A stretch of DNA of 37,350 nucleotides from Chromatiaceae bacterium (lineage in GTDB: Bacteria; Pseudomonadota; Gammaproteobacteria; Chromatiales; Chromatiaceae). Below are positions 20,504-27,604 of this stretch, in pieces. Location of the stretch: assembly GCA_007693535.1 (NCBI GenBank), contig REDK01000089.1, positions 1-37,350 of the forward strand. Direction: 5' to 3'. The number at the start of each line of letters is the position of its first letter. The first letter of the stretch is position 1. The notes beneath the pieces were generated by a model. It did no database searches, was not told the origin of the DNA, and saw nothing but the letters and a program-made list of their open reading frames with translations. The translations under genes were made by a program, and so were the position numbers.

Positions 20504-21610
<1,107 letters not shown>

Positions 21611-21624
21611 ACGCTGGGCCTCGT

Positions 21625-22389
21625 TCAGCCGCCGTCCAGGTCGTCGATCTCGGCCAGGGCAGCCAGGACGGCCGGCGCCAGCACGGTGATGCGTGCGCCC
21701 TGGATGCGGATCACGTCCTCATCGCTGAGTTGACGGATCACCCGCGAGAAGGTCTCTGGCTTGATCGACAGGCGTGAGGCCAGTACCCCTTTGCGCACGT
21801 CGAGGACGAAACAGGGCACCGTTGGCGATGGCAGCGCACTCGCATCCGCAGCGGATCGGGGCTTGACCTGCTCAGCTGCCGCGGGGCTCCTGGTGGCGCC
21901 GGACGCGGCGCGACATTGGGCCAGCAGGTAACGGGCGACCCGGCGCTTGGCACCGTGCAGGCTGAGGTTGTCGATCTCGCCGATCAGCCCGCGCAGGCGC
22001 ATGCTGAGCGCGCCGAGGACGATGAAGCAGGTCTCCACCGAATCGCGCAGCATCGTGGCAAAGTCGCCGGCATCGATCGCGATCAGCGTGGTCGGCTCCA
22101 GCGCAGCCGCGCAGACCGGGTAACGCGGGGCATTGAGAAACATCAGCGCCTCGGCAAAGGTCTGCCCCGGGGCGACGAACTCGATAATCTTCTCCGCCCC
22201 CTCCGGCGACAGCCGGAACAGGCGCATCTGACCCTGTTCCACCAGATAGAACCGCTCGGCCGGATCACCTTGGCTGAACAGCCACTGGCCCTCGTCCAGC
22301 GCCAGCCGCCGGGCATGGCTCGCCACCCGCTGCAATTGGTCGTCGCGCAGGCGGCTCAGCAACGGCGTACCGCGCAGCACCTCGATCAT
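21625..22389 (-). CDS. Crp/Fnr-family transcription regulator, DNR-like
   Basis: This 254-residue regulator has an N-terminal cyclic-nucleotide-binding-type beta barrel (about 1-115), a dimer helix (about 118-155) and a C-terminal winged HTH (about 193-240). The recognition helix has Glu212-T-F-Ser215-Arg216, the E-x-x-S-R motif used by FNR and DNR to read TTGAT half-sites. The N-terminal cysteine cluster of FNR is absent, so it is not an FNR-type iron-sulfur oxygen sensor. DNR-like haem/NO sensing is a possible inference. About 30 Ala/Ser/Pro-rich residues (162-192) interrupt the usual helix-to-HTH connection. It is divergent from the DsrC-like operon, which has a perfect FNR/DNR box. Confidence 0.88.
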   Translation of the reverse strand: MIEVLRGTPLLSRLRDDQLQRVASHARRLALDEGQWLFSQGDPAERFYLVEQGQMRLFRLSPEGAEKIIEFVAPGQTFAEALMFLNAPRYPVCAAALEPTTLIAIDAGDFATMLRDSVETCFIVLGALSMRLRGLIGEIDNLSLHGAKRRVARYLLAQCRAASGATRSPAAAEQVKPRSAADASALPSPTVPCFVLDVRKGVLASRLSIKPETFSRVIRQLSDEDVIRIQGARITVLAPAVLAALAEIDDLDGG

Positions 22390-22629
22390 CTTTGTCCTCC
22401 GCCCGCAGCCTCCGCCCGTGGATGCACCTGCCCGTCAGTGCCGGGCGCGACCGCTGGCCCGGAAAGCGGCTCGGCAAGCCCTCTTTGTTCGCCGGCTCTC
22501 AATCAACCGCGCTCGAACCACCGCGCGGCCCGACGATAGCGCCAGACCGCGAGGTCGAGCAACAGCGCCAGCCAGAGACCGGCAGCAGCCCGGATCGCCA
22601 ACACCGGCAGCCGGCTGGCCACGGCCGCC
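22390..22629. other. Divergent intergenic region
   Basis: No supported gene is present. On the minus strand a short hydrophobic frame (22503-22643) lacks a good start codon and ribosome-binding site; see findings. Confidence 0.4.
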
Positions 22630-22643
22630 TTGATGCCAATCAA
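22630..22643 (+). promoter_or_regulatory. Perfect FNR/DNR box
   Basis: TTGATGCCAATCAA is an exact match to TTGAT-N4-ATCAA. Its centre is 78 nt before the GTG start of the DsrC-like gene. If the site works at -41.5 (class II activation), transcription would start near 22678 and the -10 would fall around GATGAT (22664-22669), a weak match as is common for activated promoters. The regulator at 21625-22389 is the obvious candidate binder. Confidence 0.8.
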
Positions 22644-22714
22644 GGCGATCAGGCCGGCGTGCTGATGATGATCGGCACGACACCACAGAGTCCGTCTTGC
22701 CGGAGGTAACCCAA

Positions 22715-23356
22715 GTGATTGCCGTTCAGGTCCTGATGAAGCTCAATCAAGCCCCCCTGAAGCGCACGCCGGTCAGCCTGCGACTGGACGCCGATGGCCG
22801 CACCACCGCGCCGGTTGCCACCGACCGTGCAGGCATCGCGCGCTTCGATCTCGCGCCGGCCAGCGGCACTGTGCTAGTCGACGGCATCGAGCGCTACCAT
22901 GGCGTTCTGAACGAACAGGTCCACATCGAACTCTGGTCTATTACCCAGTCCCCCAGCGACCCCCGCGGCGCCCCCGGTGAACTGCCCGGGGGCAACAACG
23001 CCTATCCGGGCATGACCACCAGGGCGCTGCTGGTCGATGGCAGCGAGGTCCTCACCGACGGCGAGGGCTATCTAGTTGACCCGGGCCAATGGTCGGAGGG
23101 GTTCGTGCGCGCCCAGGCCAGCGCCGAGGGGCTGGTGCTGACCGATGCCCACTGGGAGGTGATCCGCTATCTGCGCCAGCGCTACGCGGCCAGCGGGCAG
23201 CAGGCCACGGTGCGCGACATGATCCGCCATTTCCGCCGCGTTTGGGGGGCCGAGGCCGGCAGCAACGGTGCCCTGCACCGGCTGTTCCCGCGCGGCGGCC
23301 CGCAAAAACAGGGCAACCGTCTGGCCGGACTCCTGCGCACCAAGGGGGAGCATTGA
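22715..23356 (+). CDS. Cysteine-less DsrC/TusE-family protein with extra N-terminal domain
   Basis: The C-terminal half (about 103-213) is a clear DsrC/TusE domain: TDGEGYLVDPGQWSEGF, LTDAHWEVIRYLRQRY, VRDMIRHF and LHRLFPRGGPQKQGNRLAGL. DsrC carries two redox cysteines on the C-terminal arm and TusE carries the last one. Here the inner position is Asn201 and the arm ends TKGEH, so both are absent and the whole protein has no cysteine. Such proteins are thought to be regulatory rather than sulfur carriers. Residues 1-80 are an added beta-rich domain (TDRAGIARFDLAPASGTVLVDG) resembling small Ig/prealbumin-like modules. GTG at 22715 is chosen because GGAGG precedes it by 8 nt. An FNR box lies upstream and the next gene overlaps by 4 nt. 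Confidence 0.85.
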   Translation: MIAVQVLMKLNQAPLKRTPVSLRLDADGRTTAPVATDRAGIARFDLAPASGTVLVDGIERYHGVLNEQVHIELWSITQSPSDPRGAPGELPGGNNAYPGMTTRALLVDGSEVLTDGEGYLVDPGQWSEGFVRAQASAEGLVLTDAHWEVIRYLRQRYAASGQQATVRDMIRHFRRVWGAEAGSNGALHRLFPRGGPQKQGNRLAGLLRTKGEH

Positions 23357-23790
23357 CCAGTTCCCCTCGCCACCGCCCGCGCCTGAGCAGCCTGAAGACG
23401 AGCCGGCGTATCCGCCGCGAACCACGTACCATCGCGGCCATGCTGCGCATCTGGTGCCTCGCGCAGCACCAACCGGCATTACCTGTCATTGGCGAGGATG
23501 GTCACGGCGCCGGGATCAGCGGCGACGCTCGCCTCTGCCCCGCCTGCACGGATCTGCTTGCGTATGCCGAGCAGCGGCTCGCCACCTGCCCGTTCCAGGA
23601 ACAGAAACCTGCCTGCAATCATTGCCAGGTCCATTGCTATCGCAGCGACCGGCGCGCGCAGGTCCGGCAGGTGATGCGCTATGCCGGGCCGCGCATGCTG
23701 CTGCGCCACCCTTGGCTCAGCCTCTGGCACCTGCTCGACACCCACCGCCGGGGAGCGACCCGGCAGCGCCGGTGCGGCACGGCGGATTGA
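23353..23790 (+). CDS. ygbA: YgbA-type (nitrous-oxide-stimulated promoter family) protein
   Basis: This 145-residue protein belongs to the YgbA family, whose E. coli member is induced by nitric oxide through NsrR. RREPRTIAAMLRIWC, LCPACTDLLAYAEQRLATCPFQEQKPACNHCQVHCY and MRYAGPRMLLRHP are diagnostic in order. Six conserved cysteines (62, 65, 79, 88, 91, 95) could bind a metal or iron-sulfur cluster. No upstream ATG fits; the TTG at 23353 overlaps the DsrC-like stop (TTGA) after GGGGGAG, indicating translational coupling. Its position behind an FNR/DNR box and the DsrC-like gene links both to anaerobic or NO stress. Confidence 0.82.
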   Translation: MTSSPRHRPRLSSLKTSRRIRREPRTIAAMLRIWCLAQHQPALPVIGEDGHGAGISGDARLCPACTDLLAYAEQRLATCPFQEQKPACNHCQVHCYRSDRRAQVRQVMRYAGPRMLLRHPWLSLWHLLDTHRRGATRQRRCGTAD

Positions 23791-23931: not shown

Positions 23932-24666
23932 TCACCGCGCGACCAGCCCCAGCCAGCCCAGCAGCGGCGGCAGCAGCAGGGCGGTCAGCACCGCGGCCAG
24001 CGCCATCGCCAGCCCGGCCAGGGCGCCGGCCCGGGCGTCCAGTTGCAACGCGCGGGCGGTGCCCATGCCATGCGCCGCGGTACCCAGCGCGGTCCCGATG
24101 ACCACCGGATCACGGATGCCCAGCAGACGCAGCAGCCCGACCCCGAAGACCGCTCCCACCAGCCCGGTGAGGACCACCAGGGCCGCGGTCAAGGCCGGGA
24201 TGCCACCGAGCTTCTCAGCAATCCCCATCGCCACCGGCGTGGTGACCGATTTGGGCGCCAGCGATAGCAGCACCGGCTCCTCGGCCCCAAACAGCAACGC
24301 CAGCCCCACCGCGAGCAGCGCCGCCGTCGTCACCCCTACGAGCAGCGCCACCCCCAGCGGTAGCGCCAGGGTGCGCAGGTCGGCGCGCAAGCGATAAAGC
24401 GGGATCGCCAGTGCCACGGTCGCCGGCCCGAGCAGGAAGTGGATGAACTGGGCGCCGTCGAAATAGACGGCATAGGGGGTGTCGGTGAGGACTAGCAGGC
24501 CGATCAACAGGCCCACCGTCCACACCACCGGATTGAGCAGTGCCAGGCGGCCCGCGCGTTCGTAGAGGACCGTGGTTGCCTGCCAGAGCAGCAGCGTGGC
24601 AGTGAGCCAGAACAGCGGCTTAGCGGCTAGATAGACCCACAGGGTCTGCAGCGGCTCCTCAGCCAT
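23932..24666 (-). CDS. lrgB: LrgB/CidB-family membrane protein
   Basis: This 244-residue inner-membrane protein has about seven hydrophobic segments. The family core SLAPKSVTTPVAMGIAE, GIRDPVVIGTALGTAAHGMGTARAL is intact. LrgB works with LrgA; the pair is described as holin/antiholin-like, and plant and bacterial relatives transport glycolate/glycerate or pyruvate. Its start overlaps the lrgA 3' end by 8 nt, so they form an operon. It converges on ygbA. Confidence 0.93.
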   Translation of the reverse strand: MAEEPLQTLWVYLAAKPLFWLTATLLLWQATTVLYERAGRLALLNPVVWTVGLLIGLLVLTDTPYAVYFDGAQFIHFLLGPATVALAIPLYRLRADLRTLALPLGVALLVGVTTAALLAVGLALLFGAEEPVLLSLAPKSVTTPVAMGIAEKLGGIPALTAALVVLTGLVGAVFGVGLLRLLGIRDPVVIGTALGTAAHGMGTARALQLDARAGALAGLAMALAAVLTALLLPPLLGWLGLVAR

Positions 24667-25120
24667 GACCGGCCCGCGCGCCAGCCCCTAGCGCGGTCTC
24701 GGCCCCGCCATCGGTACCGCCATCGGTACTGGCCTGGGCCGCAGACTGCGTCCTGCCACCGGGACCACCCCCACCGGCCCGCGGGCCCAGCAGCCATCGC
24801 ATCGCGCGCATGGTCAGCGCGGTGATCAGCAGGACCGCCAGGGTGCCCGGCAGCAGCGCCGCGACCAGCGTCGGCCAGTCCGCCAGCAGCCGCTGCCAGT
24901 GCACCATGACTCCCACCCCCGCCGGCACGAACAACAGCGGCAAATGGCCGAGTAGGGTATCGGCACTCTGCGCGACGCCGGCCGGCAGGCCACGCCAGCT
25001 CAGCCCAGCAAACAGCAGCAGCATGCCCAGCACCGGCCCCGGCAGCGGCAGATGCAGTAGCAGCACAGCAATCTCGCCGAGCAGTTGGCAACAGAGGATC
25101 AGGGTCAGGGCCTTGAGCAT
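24659..25120 (-). CDS. lrgA: LrgA/CidA-family membrane protein
   Basis: This 153-residue protein has four hydrophobic segments in the first 115 residues and the family motifs LLGEIAVLLLHLPLPGPVLGMLLL and LGHLPLLFVPAGVGVMVH. The last 40 residues are Gly/Ala-rich and hydrophilic, longer than the family usually has. It is the upstream partner of lrgB, with which it overlaps by 8 nt. The gene lies 38 nt after the RyR-domain gene. Confidence 0.9.
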   Translation of the reverse strand: MLKALTLILCCQLLGEIAVLLLHLPLPGPVLGMLLLFAGLSWRGLPAGVAQSADTLLGHLPLLFVPAGVGVMVHWQRLLADWPTLVAALLPGTLAVLLITALTMRAMRWLLGPRAGGGGPGGRTQSAAQASTDGGTDGGAETALGAGARAGHG

Positions 25121-25158: not shown

Positions 25159-26958
25159 TCAGTATTCAAAGCCCCAGTGCAGCCGACCGGCCGGATCGAT
25201 CTCTACCCGCTTGGGTGCGCCAGCCGCGGATACCGCCGCCGTGCCCCGCGGGGTGGCCGTCGGCGCAAACTCCAGCAGGATCTCGGCACGCCGGTGCAAC
25301 CAGCGCAGCAGCTCCCCAGGCGCCGGCAACGGGATGCGCCGCTCGGCCCGAGCCACTAGCGCCAGCGTCTCCAGGCGGGCAGCGGCATCGAGCCCGGCCA
25401 GTAGGGCCGGCAGCGGCCGGTCACCGAGCAGGAACAGCCCGGCCCCGGCCTCGTCCAGGGCGCGCTGCGCGAACCGGCGCGCCGGCGCCTCGGCCAGGGT
25501 GCTGGCAAGGATCAGGCCGCGCGCCGGATAGCGGGCCAGCAGCCGGCGCAGGATCTGCCCGAACCGCCGGTGCAGACGGGCATCGGTGAGCGCCGCGGCG
25601 GGAAACCCGGGCGGGAGCGGCGCCAGCCCCAGGATCAGCATGCGCACCACCCCTAGGCTGGAGCGGGCGAGCAGGGCCGGGACCTGGCGCACCGCAAAGC
25701 GGTCCAGGTCCTGCATCGGTCCGGACAGATCCCGATAGAGAATCAGTTGGGGGTGCTGCTTGCGGGCGTTGTCGCGCACCGGGGCATAGGACCAGCCATC
25801 CAGATAGCGGTCCGCGGCCCAGCGGGCGTGCTCGATCTGCGCCAGTCGTTCCACCTCCACCGGGGTGAAGGCGAACGACTCCACCTGCTCTTCGGCCACT
25901 GCCCGACAATCAGTGACAGCCAGCTTGGCCCAGAGATGATCGGCCTGCTGGCGGTTGGCATCGCGATAGGACTCGGCCAGGGTCGCCCATGGCTGCCCGG
26001 CCGGCTCGCTGGCAGGATCGCGGCCCTGCGCCTCGATGCTGTCGCGGTAATGGCCGTGGATCACCTGGGCCAGGGCATCGGTGCGGGCCTCCAGCAACAC
26101 CTCCGGCGCCAGTACCGTGTCGCGATACGAGACCGGGATGATCTGCCCATCCCAGTCGGCCAGGGTTCCGGTGGGTTGCGTTGCGCCGACCTCCAGCAGA
26201 ATCGGCGGAGAGACCCCCTGCCCCGCCGCCAGTTGCCGGGCCAGCCCGATGGCGACCGCCAGCCCAGCACTCGGCAGCGCTGGGCAAACCCAGACCAGCG
26301 AGACCGGTGGCCCGTTCAGCAGCTCGGGATCATCGGGCCCCAGAAAACGCAGCCGGGCAATCTGGCCGGCCTGGGGATAGGCAGCCATGAACGCCCGCTG
26401 CCAGGCTGCGGCAGCCCCCGCCAGCAGGGTGATATGGAGAGGCCGCTCGCCATAATGGCCGCCGCGCAGGGCCTGCACCAACAGGGCCTCGGCCGGCGGT
26501 GCCCGCCCGGCGATGATCAGATGGATGGCCTGATCGTCCCCCGGGTCGGCGCCCTGATGCAGCGGCCAGCGCGCAAGTAGCAACCGCGCCGCTCGCGCTG
26601 CGAGATCGATCTGCTCCAGTTGCAGGGTCGCCGGCACAGCCGGCAGTGGCAGCGGAGCAGGAGCGGCATTGCCGGTGTCATGGATCAACAGCACCCGCAG
26701 CGGTGCGCGCCCTGCCGCTCGCCGCTGGCAGGCGCGTGCGAGCGCCGCCAGGCTGGCCGCGGCATCCTGTGGGTCGGCCAGCACCAGCACCAGCGCCCGC
26801 TGCAGCCGGCGCAAGAGGGCGGGTGCCGGCACGACCGCAGCAGGGTCGGCGATCTGCTCGAACCGCCGCCGCGCCCGGCCCAGACCCGCCGCGACCTGCG
26901 CCGCCAACGGGCTGGCACCGGCGAGCAGGATGGGAGGGGCGCCGAGGGACCAGGACAT
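25159..26958 (-). CDS. RyR-domain protein with Rossmann-like and SLOG-like regions
   Basis: This is a 599-residue soluble protein. Residues about 8-95 begin with a TrkA-N/Rossmann-like strand-glycine motif (PILLAGASPLAAQVAAGLG). Residues 145-280 look like a second alpha/beta region. Residues about 368-430 form a RyR domain (EHARWAADRYLDGWSYAP, DNARKQHP, DRFAVRQVPALL), the repeat found in ryanodine receptors and in bacterial nucleotide-signalling proteins. Residues 437-545 (RMLILGLAPLPPG, GLILASTLAEAPARRFAQRAL, LVARAERRIPLP) resemble a divergent SLOG nucleotide-binding domain. The ATG at 26958 is chosen; the frame continues to 27231 but only with Arg-rich non-family sequence. The RyR call is firm, the SLOG call tentative. 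No effector gene adjoins it. Confidence 0.78.
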   Translation of the reverse strand: MSWSLGAPPILLAGASPLAAQVAAGLGRARRRFEQIADPAAVVPAPALLRRLQRALVLVLADPQDAAASLAALARACQRRAAGRAPLRVLLIHDTGNAAPAPLPLPAVPATLQLEQIDLAARAARLLLARWPLHQGADPGDDQAIHLIIAGRAPPAEALLVQALRGGHYGERPLHITLLAGAAAAWQRAFMAAYPQAGQIARLRFLGPDDPELLNGPPVSLVWVCPALPSAGLAVAIGLARQLAAGQGVSPPILLEVGATQPTGTLADWDGQIIPVSYRDTVLAPEVLLEARTDALAQVIHGHYRDSIEAQGRDPASEPAGQPWATLAESYRDANRQQADHLWAKLAVTDCRAVAEEQVESFAFTPVEVERLAQIEHARWAADRYLDGWSYAPVRDNARKQHPQLILYRDLSGPMQDLDRFAVRQVPALLARSSLGVVRMLILGLAPLPPGFPAAALTDARLHRRFGQILRRLLARYPARGLILASTLAEAPARRFAQRALDEAGAGLFLLGDRPLPALLAGLDAAARLETLALVARAERRIPLPAPGELLRWLHRRAEILLEFAPTATPRGTAAVSAAGAPKRVEIDPAGRLHWGFEY

Positions 26959-27109
26959 CGCGGCCCACTCAGTCCGTCCGGAGGCCAAGGTGCATCGCAA
27001 CCGGGACCGACACCGGCAGTGGCCGCGACGCCCTGCCCGCGGTGCCGCTGCCAGCGCACGGACGGGATGCCCGAGCGATCGGCGTCTCCGGTGCGCCGCT
27101 GCCGCCCAC

Positions 27110-27604
27110 TCAGTCCGACCGGTGCAGCAGGGTACCGGCCTCGTCGCAGACCTCCACGGCAATGGGGATGCCGTCGCGGATGCTCGCCGAGACCACGCAG
27201 AAGTCCTCGAACAGATCCTTGCAACGCTCAAAGCGTTTGGAGTCGGTCAGCGCACCGGCGGCGATCAGGCGCACCTCCATGCGGCCGATGCGCAGGCGCT
27301 TTTTGGCATTGCGCACCAGGATGCAGGTCGCCTCCGCGCGCAGGCTGCCATCCGGCGGTTCCTCTTTGAACAGGCAATGCAGCAGGCTGGCCGACAGGCA
27401 ATTGGCGGCTGCGGCGGCAAGCAGCCGGGAGGCATTGGGACCGGCGGTCTCGCCCAGCGGCGGCGGCTCGTCGGTGAGCAGATCGGCGGCGCGCTTCCAG
27501 TCGAAGCGCACATTGATCTGATAACCCTCCTGCTGTTCCAGGTGGATGGTGAAGCGGCCCTGTTCGATCGGTTCGGCAGCGGTCGGAACCTGATTGTCAG
27601 CCAT
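27110..27604 (-). CDS. OsmC-family protein
   Basis: This 164-residue protein of the OsmC/Ohr family comprises thiol peroxidases acting on organic hydroperoxides and related uncharacterised members. Cys69 (AANCLSASLLHCL) and a second cysteine in EDFCVVSASIRDG match the family positions, and IRDGIPIAVEV closes the domain. The start at 27604 overlaps the preceding cyclotransferase gene by 8 nt; the frame continues upstream only inside that gene. Substrate unknown. Confidence 0.88.
   Translation of the reverse strand: MADNQVPTAAEPIEQGRFTIHLEQQEGYQINVRFDWKRAADLLTDEPPPLGETAGPNASRLLAAAAANCLSASLLHCLFKEEPPDGSLRAEATCILVRNAKKRLRIGRMEVRLIAAGALTDSKRFERCKDLFEDFCVVSASIRDGIPIAVEVCDEAGTLLHRSD

Follow-up and report, generated by a model that had tools for sequence, protein, structure and literature searches.

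A cysteine-free DsrC-domain fusion encoded with ygbA behind an FNR-type box in a Chromatiaceae genome

Members of the DsrC/TusE/DsvC family (PF04358, TIGR03342) feature a C-terminal arm whose penultimate cysteine is termed strictly conserved in all DsrC in PMC3397948. The present analysis concerns a DsrC-domain protein devoid of any cysteine, encoded by a purple sulfur bacterium of the Chromatiaceae (assembly GCA_007693535.1) in the window, that is, the whole analysed stretch of 37,350 nucleotides (contig REDK01000089.1, positions 1 to 37,350). Its gene is a fusion, which is joined to ygbA, preceded by a perfect FNR/DNR box and faced by a divergent gene for a DNR-like regulator. Cysteine-less DsrC homologues have reportedly been named RspA by Venceslau et al. 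2014, a name suggesting regulators. With respect to the remaining components, DNR control of hcp is predicted for Thermochromatium tepidum, likewise of the Chromatiaceae, in Rodionov et al. 2005 (PMC1274295), in the main text of which the term 'dsrC' occurs 0 times. Moreover, ygbA is controlled by NsrR and nitric oxide (NO) in E. coli and Salmonella according to PMC5320621 and PMC2884951, while its function was given as not known in a 2007 paper.

Comparison of the fusion with its relatives reveals a distinct clade of the DsrC family, in which both arm cysteines are exchanged for a conserved (K)GEH end. The gene neighbourhoods of this branch suggest that it serves nitrate and NO metabolism.

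The fusion and the KGEH clade

The initial annotation had placed a regulator, a box, a DsrC fusion and ygbA within positions 21625 to 23790, and all four were recovered at these positions. The arrangement is as follows:

21625 to 22389, minus strand: DNR-like CRP/FNR-family regulator (PF00027 and PF13545; 3dkw match), divergent from the operon
22630 to 22643, no strand assigned: perfect FNR/DNR box TTGATGCCAATCAA, one of 5 perfect sites in the genome
22667 to 22672, plus strand: possible -10 element GATGAT, 4/6 consensus matches, by eye, weak, at class II distance from the box
22702 to 22706, plus strand: Shine-Dalgarno sequence GGAGG, 8 nt ahead of GTG 22715
22715 to 23356, plus strand: DsrC-domain fusion, 213 amino acids, 0 cysteines; beta-sandwich about 1-75, linker, DsrC domain about 100-208, arm end RTKGEH
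23294 to 23353, plus strand: near-invariant arm region GGPQKQGNRLAGLLRTKGEH replacing the cysteine arm of DsrC; 41/41 family loci end KGEH
23353 to 23790, plus strand: ygbA (PF11756), TTG start, preceded by AGGGGGAG; 4-nt overlap with the TGA of the fusion

The assignment of the fusion to the DsrC family is firm, with a match to PF04358 over residues 107-208 (E-value 1e-27, 97.1 bits, cut-off 24.9) and a score above the cut-off of TIGR03342 (70.5 versus 53.5 bits). DsrC of A. vinosum (1yx3) is recovered by phmmer (E-value 1.5e-14) as well as by Foldseek (E-value 8e-8, TMt 0.86), and the Foldseek matches include 2v4j, a structure of DsrC in sulfite reductase. The penultimate arm cysteine is missing, the end reading RTKGEH, and so is the second arm cysteine, which is present in DsrAB organisms: no cysteine occurs across GGPQKQGNRLAG. 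Because both arm cysteines are lost, a KGEH protein should be unable to carry sulfur in the way DsrC does. In the AlphaFold model (mean pLDDT 85), an N-terminal beta-sandwich, a linker, the DsrC domain and the arm follow one another, with low confidence in the linker (residues 78-88) and at the arm end (210-213), the latter as for a free flexible arm. For the N-terminal part, Foldseek returned transthyretin/HIUase/CnaB-like sandwiches weakly (E-values of about 0.008 and worse), and a profile search of the PDB returned DsrC matches alone. The fusion begins with GTG at a position where most relatives have ATG. The overlapping gene product is a clear YgbA (PF11756, E-value 1.9e-37, 128.3 bits, cut-off 25) with a cysteine-rich centre.

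This genome holds 8 matches to TIGR03342. It also encodes an RKGGY-ending paralogue with a cysteine-less arm (L002 / L253, G000:C17:15023-15343) on the same contig as the canonical DsrC. A decayed second copy of the fusion is also present (L003 / L199, G000:C99:172-336), of which only the last part remains, with the altered tail AVLLSTKGEH.

A search through 194 genomes of the family (threshold E 1e-30) yielded a fusion match in 68, among them 50 full-length fusions in 47 genomes, the others being confined to the DsrC domain or cut. From these 50, 40 retrieved full-length loci together with the window constitute a set of 41, for which the partial DsrC match L065 was skipped; all 41 end in KGEH, and 33 contain no cysteine whatever. 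Across alignment A1 (25 rows), in which identity to the window decreases to 47%, GGPQKQGNRLAGLL and KGEH are invariant, and variation within the arm region is limited to R and T ahead of KGEH. Other genera have shorter, stand-alone proteins that share this end. A class-wide search conducted without the tail pattern was positive in 21 of 369 genomes, this one included, with a GEH end in 20 and GEV in 1. A scan of GTDB genomes, from which the best 80 of 362 relatives were kept, gave 78 ends in GEH and one each in GEV and GEF; since its patterns made use of the tail and favour it, tail conservation is counted on the BLAST-based sets, which exclude that the tail is an artefact of pattern scanning. 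The neighbourhood sets comprise 73 named fusions and 24 stand-alone loci, with 30 other TIGR03342 loci as controls.

Phylogeny supports the same grouping. In a tree of 70 DsrC-family domains from which the arm had been removed, the 38 KGEH rows, chosen for spread from a larger locus pool, form one branch (bootstrap 98, SH-aLRT 99.9), and a clade united by its tail alone is excluded by this removal. The 32 other rows include the canonical DsrC and the RKGGY paralogue of this genome, and the RKGGY pair (L253, L254) falls outside the KGEH clade. Omitted from the tree were L002, a duplicate of L253, L004, a duplicate of L230, and the very divergent L007. With so few columns, and with outgroup branches that are in part very long, the tree does not settle its inner order, such as whether the fusion arose once or twice. 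As for the spread of the clade, 13 pattern matches in viral contigs comprised no relative, and a metagenome-assembled genome labelled Desulfobulbaceae holds two KGEH fusions (L155, L158), by gene transfer or binning error.

Gene neighbourhoods, boxes and the regulator

The surroundings of KGEH genes, whose neighbour families were profile-checked on representatives and otherwise assigned by BLAST to these, differ from those of other family members. Within 1.5 kb, a marker of the nitrogen-oxide panel, which takes in narGHJI, a NasA/Fdh-like molybdenum enzyme with nirBD, nnrS, HPP, NsrR/RirA-like genes and ygbA, accompanies 17 of the 21 KGEH loci of the class-wide search (16 of 20 without the window), 34 of 73 fusions and 18 of 24 stand-alone loci, compared with 1 of 30 control loci. 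In that single control locus the match is of NarI type; it may be DsrM, a protein that can carry the annotation nitrate reductase gamma (PMC10892978). Stand-alone KGEH genes lie directly after narH-narJ-narI (with narG where the stretch reaches it), followed in places by an FKBP isomerase (L083, L084, L085, L087, L096, L098), while others come after a molybdenum oxidoreductase and a Fer4/DmsC protein, with nirB-nirD upstream in L180/L181. The best-scoring models for this NasA/FdhA-like molybdenum enzyme are formate dehydrogenase alpha and then NasC, both below cut-off, which leaves its substrate uncertain. Counted up to 6 kb from the 73 fusions are CBS 18, HPP 17, NnrS 15, Nor-type VWA 7, Rrf2 (NsrR/RirA type, under both cut-offs) 6, NasA-like 5, NirB 5, YgbA 4, NapA 3, NirD 3, NarG 2 and DNR-like 2.

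Two unassigned proteins accompany Thiocapsa fusions. One of about 218 amino acids (L053, 11635-12291), with no Pfam match at E 1e-5, stands beside SCO1 and a Nor-type VWA protein in a cluster that recurs in L106, L115, L119 and L121. The other, a membrane-like protein of 432 amino acids encoded convergently to the fusion (L115, 6787-8085, minus strand), resembles the NnrS type by eye and matches neither Pfam nor NCBIfam at E 1e-5.

The annotation's perfect TTGAT-N4-ATCAA proved to be TTGATGCCAATCAA, 71 nt ahead of GTG 22715, and no second site in the window comes within one mismatch, against an expectation of 0.11 such sites; 10 of 100 shuffles contain at least one. The genome of 4.16 Mb has 5 perfect boxes. 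Two of these lie within open frames, one for a zinc metallopeptidase and one for a trypsin-like/PDZ protein; the other three are located 60-86 nt ahead of starts, namely those of nrdD (anaerobic ribonucleotide reductase), an HPP-family membrane protein, matched by its profile in part, and fusion-ygbA. A one-mismatch box precedes hcp by about 127 nt, counted from the first matched residue rather than the start codon. This hcp (L261 / L262, G000:C113:14749-15984) lacks profile positions of about 75-160 between two matched stretches, both of which share one open frame. NapA, Hcp and one NnrS are encoded in the same genome.

Boxes recur among relatives. A site with at most one mismatch lies within 300 nt upstream of the fusion in 12 of the 41 loci (window included), where shuffles expect 0.10. 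For the larger named set, composed of fusions and few stand-alone genes without the window, 77 (upstream) and 75 (downstream) of 80 loci had enough flank: a box is found within 250 nt upstream of the KGEH gene in 14 of 77, as opposed to 1, 0, 0, 0, 0 and 2 for six control palindromes, and downstream in 7 of 75, as opposed to 0 for all six. These counts are not independent events, given that the rows are related. All seven downstream boxes precede nnrS, which corresponds to 7 of the 9 loci with a same-strand nnrS within 200 nt downstream. Taken together, shuffles of the window, rarity in the genome, recurrence in relatives and control palindromes rule out chance as the origin of the box.

Similar signals surround ygbA. 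The box stands ahead of ygbA in each of the 7 further genomes sampled from the genus, and outside the genus in 3 of 9 loci (L186, L187, L201). A DNR-like gene and ygbA occur in tandem in at least 6 of 67 ygbA-bearing genomes, and ygbA adjoins nnrS in at least 12, as judged by eye from coordinates. The proposed link to NO and anoxia thus gained support, with boxes before fusion orthologues, between fusion and nnrS, and before ygbA. The pair itself did not hold up in relatives: of 73 named loci, 4 have ygbA less than 6 kb from the fusion, and there the two genes are always convergent and never overlapping. A conserved fusion-ygbA operon is excluded, the 4-nt overlap being seen in the species of the window alone. 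Box, ygbA, nnrS, DNR-like gene and fusion rather recur together as a loosely assembled set, and the window displays one of its arrangements.

The regulator combines a cNMP-binding domain (PF00027) with HTH_Crp_2 (PF13545), as found by profile search, and among solved structures P. aeruginosa DNR (3dkw, E-value 9.7e-37) is its closest match. With regard to DNR, it has the CRP/FNR fold and the E-x-x-S-R helix claimed by the initial annotation, which reads PETFSR, and the N-terminal cysteine cluster of iron-sulfur FNR was not found in it upon alignment with relatives. An insert of about 28 residues between its two domains is absent in nine aligned relatives. The genome encodes its own iron-sulfur FNR as well (L202, on C69), above the curated cut-off, with CKSCTLSQLC...C and an ETVSR helix; as the helix is of the same class, the identity of the activator cannot be read from the box by itself. 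A one-mismatch FNR box at position 2271 of L202 (G000:C69), near fnr, points to possible autoregulation.

Further genes of the window comprise a weakly phosphoglycerate-mutase-like protein at 20504-21610, below cut-offs, with a C-terminal run of QN repeats (DNA about 21473-21518), an LrgA/LrgB pair at 23932-25120 (minus strand), convergent with the ygbA operon, and a 690-amino-acid open reading frame at 25159-27231 (minus strand) with a RyR domain (PF02026).

Proposed mechanism and its alternatives

We consider it rather probable that fusion and ygbA form a coupled operon of an anaerobic/nitrogen-oxide regulon, activated by a CRP/FNR-type protein, and that the KGEH product does not carry sulfur but likely acts in docking or assembly. 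The DsrC fold, fused to an N-terminal beta-sandwich, has probably been re-used for nitrogen-oxide metabolism. A CRP/FNR-family activator, be it the divergent DNR-like neighbour, the iron-sulfur FNR or both, would occupy the box and raise transcription of the fusion-ygbA message upon anoxia or NO, and the 4-nt TTGA overlap, confirmed for a cysteine-free DsrC-domain gene and ygbA, would couple their translation. The KGEH protein would keep the DsrC fold and a flexible, non-redox C-terminal arm, which may be pushed into a partner of nitrate, nitrite or NO metabolism, analogous to the DsrC arm in sulfite reductase. Such a partner could be a reductase of the molybdenum or sirohaem type, or the machinery that assembles it; since the sirohaem-type domain of NirB is related to sulfite reductase, a sirohaem partner is thinkable, with NirB near 5 of 73 fusions only. 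Tentatively, and with less confidence, a whole branch of the family may have become a non-redox docking protein whose almost invariant GEH arm end inserts into a nitrogen-oxide reductase of the molybdenum or sirohaem type, or into its assembly chaperone. The terminal histidine might then come close to the metal site, and the protein would tune, mature or protect the enzyme under NO.

Several results weigh against such a common regulon and function. Twenty-nine of the 41 fusions have no upstream box even when one mismatch is allowed, and a LysR gene lies within 1.5 kb of 32 of 73 fusions, mostly divergent, which together indicate that control varies. No box was found ahead of ygbA in L182-L185, L196 and L200, nor in the 10 kb surrounding the second ygbA of this genome (L188). 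The spacing suited to class II activation that had been postulated is no more than compatible with the sequence: a GATGAT chosen by eye would fit it, and a promoter scan returned no sigma-70 site. No marker occurs within 6 kb of 28 of 73 fusions, contig ends explaining some of these, and 6 of 24 stand-alone loci are marker-free. The marker panel was drawn from KGEH neighbourhoods, so that the contrast with controls is inflated and the enrichment somewhat optimistic. Finally, the putative partner protein would differ between genomic contexts.

Concerning the activator, it is a serious, if minority, possibility that the box is served by the oxygen-sensing iron-sulfur FNR within a general anaerobic operon, the DNR-like neighbour having other targets, as the ETVSR-bearing FNR of this genome and the perfect box shared with the classical anaerobic gene nrdD would allow. 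On the other hand, the tandem of DNR-like gene and ygbA recurs, the DNR-like gene occupies, divergently, the slot held by LysR in many relatives (a close copy of the neighbouring LysR was not found in this genome, the best identity being 33%), and ygbA, hcp, nnrS and HPP are, in part by established knowledge, nitrogen-oxide rather than general anaerobic genes. That fusion and ygbA are neighbours by chance and share the promoter incidentally appears unlikely. The restriction of the overlap to one species and the decayed second fusion copy speak for it; it is opposed by FNR-type boxes that fusion and ygbA each carry independently in part of the relatives, by nnrS, which each of them meets in several genomes, and by 4 of 73 loci in which a convergent ygbA is found no more than 2.5 kb from the fusion.

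Two further explanations concern the product itself. DNA binding has reportedly been proposed for the DsrC fold by Grimm et al. 2010, and a regulatory role of the KGEH domain would fit a fold retained though both cysteines are gone and genes often beside regulators (LysR, Rrf2, and DNR-like in two loci). It is nevertheless improbable in our view, for the arm region is the most conserved, which suits protein docking better than DNA binding, and the position right after narGHJI suits an accessory protein. The cross-talk between sulfur relay and NO envisaged by the initial annotation is weakened by the loss of both relay cysteines and by the separate clade with its nitrogen-oxide neighbours. A variant, in which the fusion is a sulfur-relay protein of another kind that borrows its cysteine from a partner such as YgbA, whose cysteine-rich centre is co-encoded with it in the window, is very improbable: 33 of 41 fusions have no cysteine at all, around 69 of 73 no ygbA match turned up over 6 kb, or as far as the contig extends, and the neighbours found are nitrogen-oxide genes, from a marker panel that held no tus/dsr genes.

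Comparison with known systems

Family models label KGEH proteins as 'TusE/DsrC sulfur relay', which would mislead readings of sulfur metabolism in genomes and metagenomes. The tag GGPQKQGNR..G...KGEH combined with narGHJI, nirBD or nnrS neighbours offers a handle on a putative nitrate/NO component in sulfur bacteria, and ygbA gains a co-encoded partner in the DsrC-domain fusion. YgbA itself is an above-cut-off member of its NO-linked family; while its counterparts in E. coli and Salmonella are NsrR-regulated, it stands here behind an FNR-type box and is probably coupled in translation with the overlapping DsrC-domain gene. The regulator has P. aeruginosa DNR as its best solved relative, and the box core is identical, but it carries the insert of about 28 residues; haem-dependent NO sensing would be a putative property of it.

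The fusion shares with DsrC/TusE/DsvC the fold and the sequence over residues of about 100-208, and departs from them by the missing arm cysteines, the KGEH end, the additional beta-sandwich, the nitrogen-oxide neighbours and the separate clade. It lacks the relay cysteines, as the homologues reportedly named RspA do, and KGEH proteins may or may not fall under that name; the RKGGY-ending member of this genome, outside the clade, is a further one with a cysteine-less arm. The accessible literature on DsrC/TusE in connection with nitrate reductase and NO contained no description of a nitrate/NO-linked clade with a KGEH arm. Cysteine-less DsrC homologues as such are reportedly known, and what appears new is a clade of them that is linked to nitrate and NO by its gene neighbours and bears a KGEH arm.

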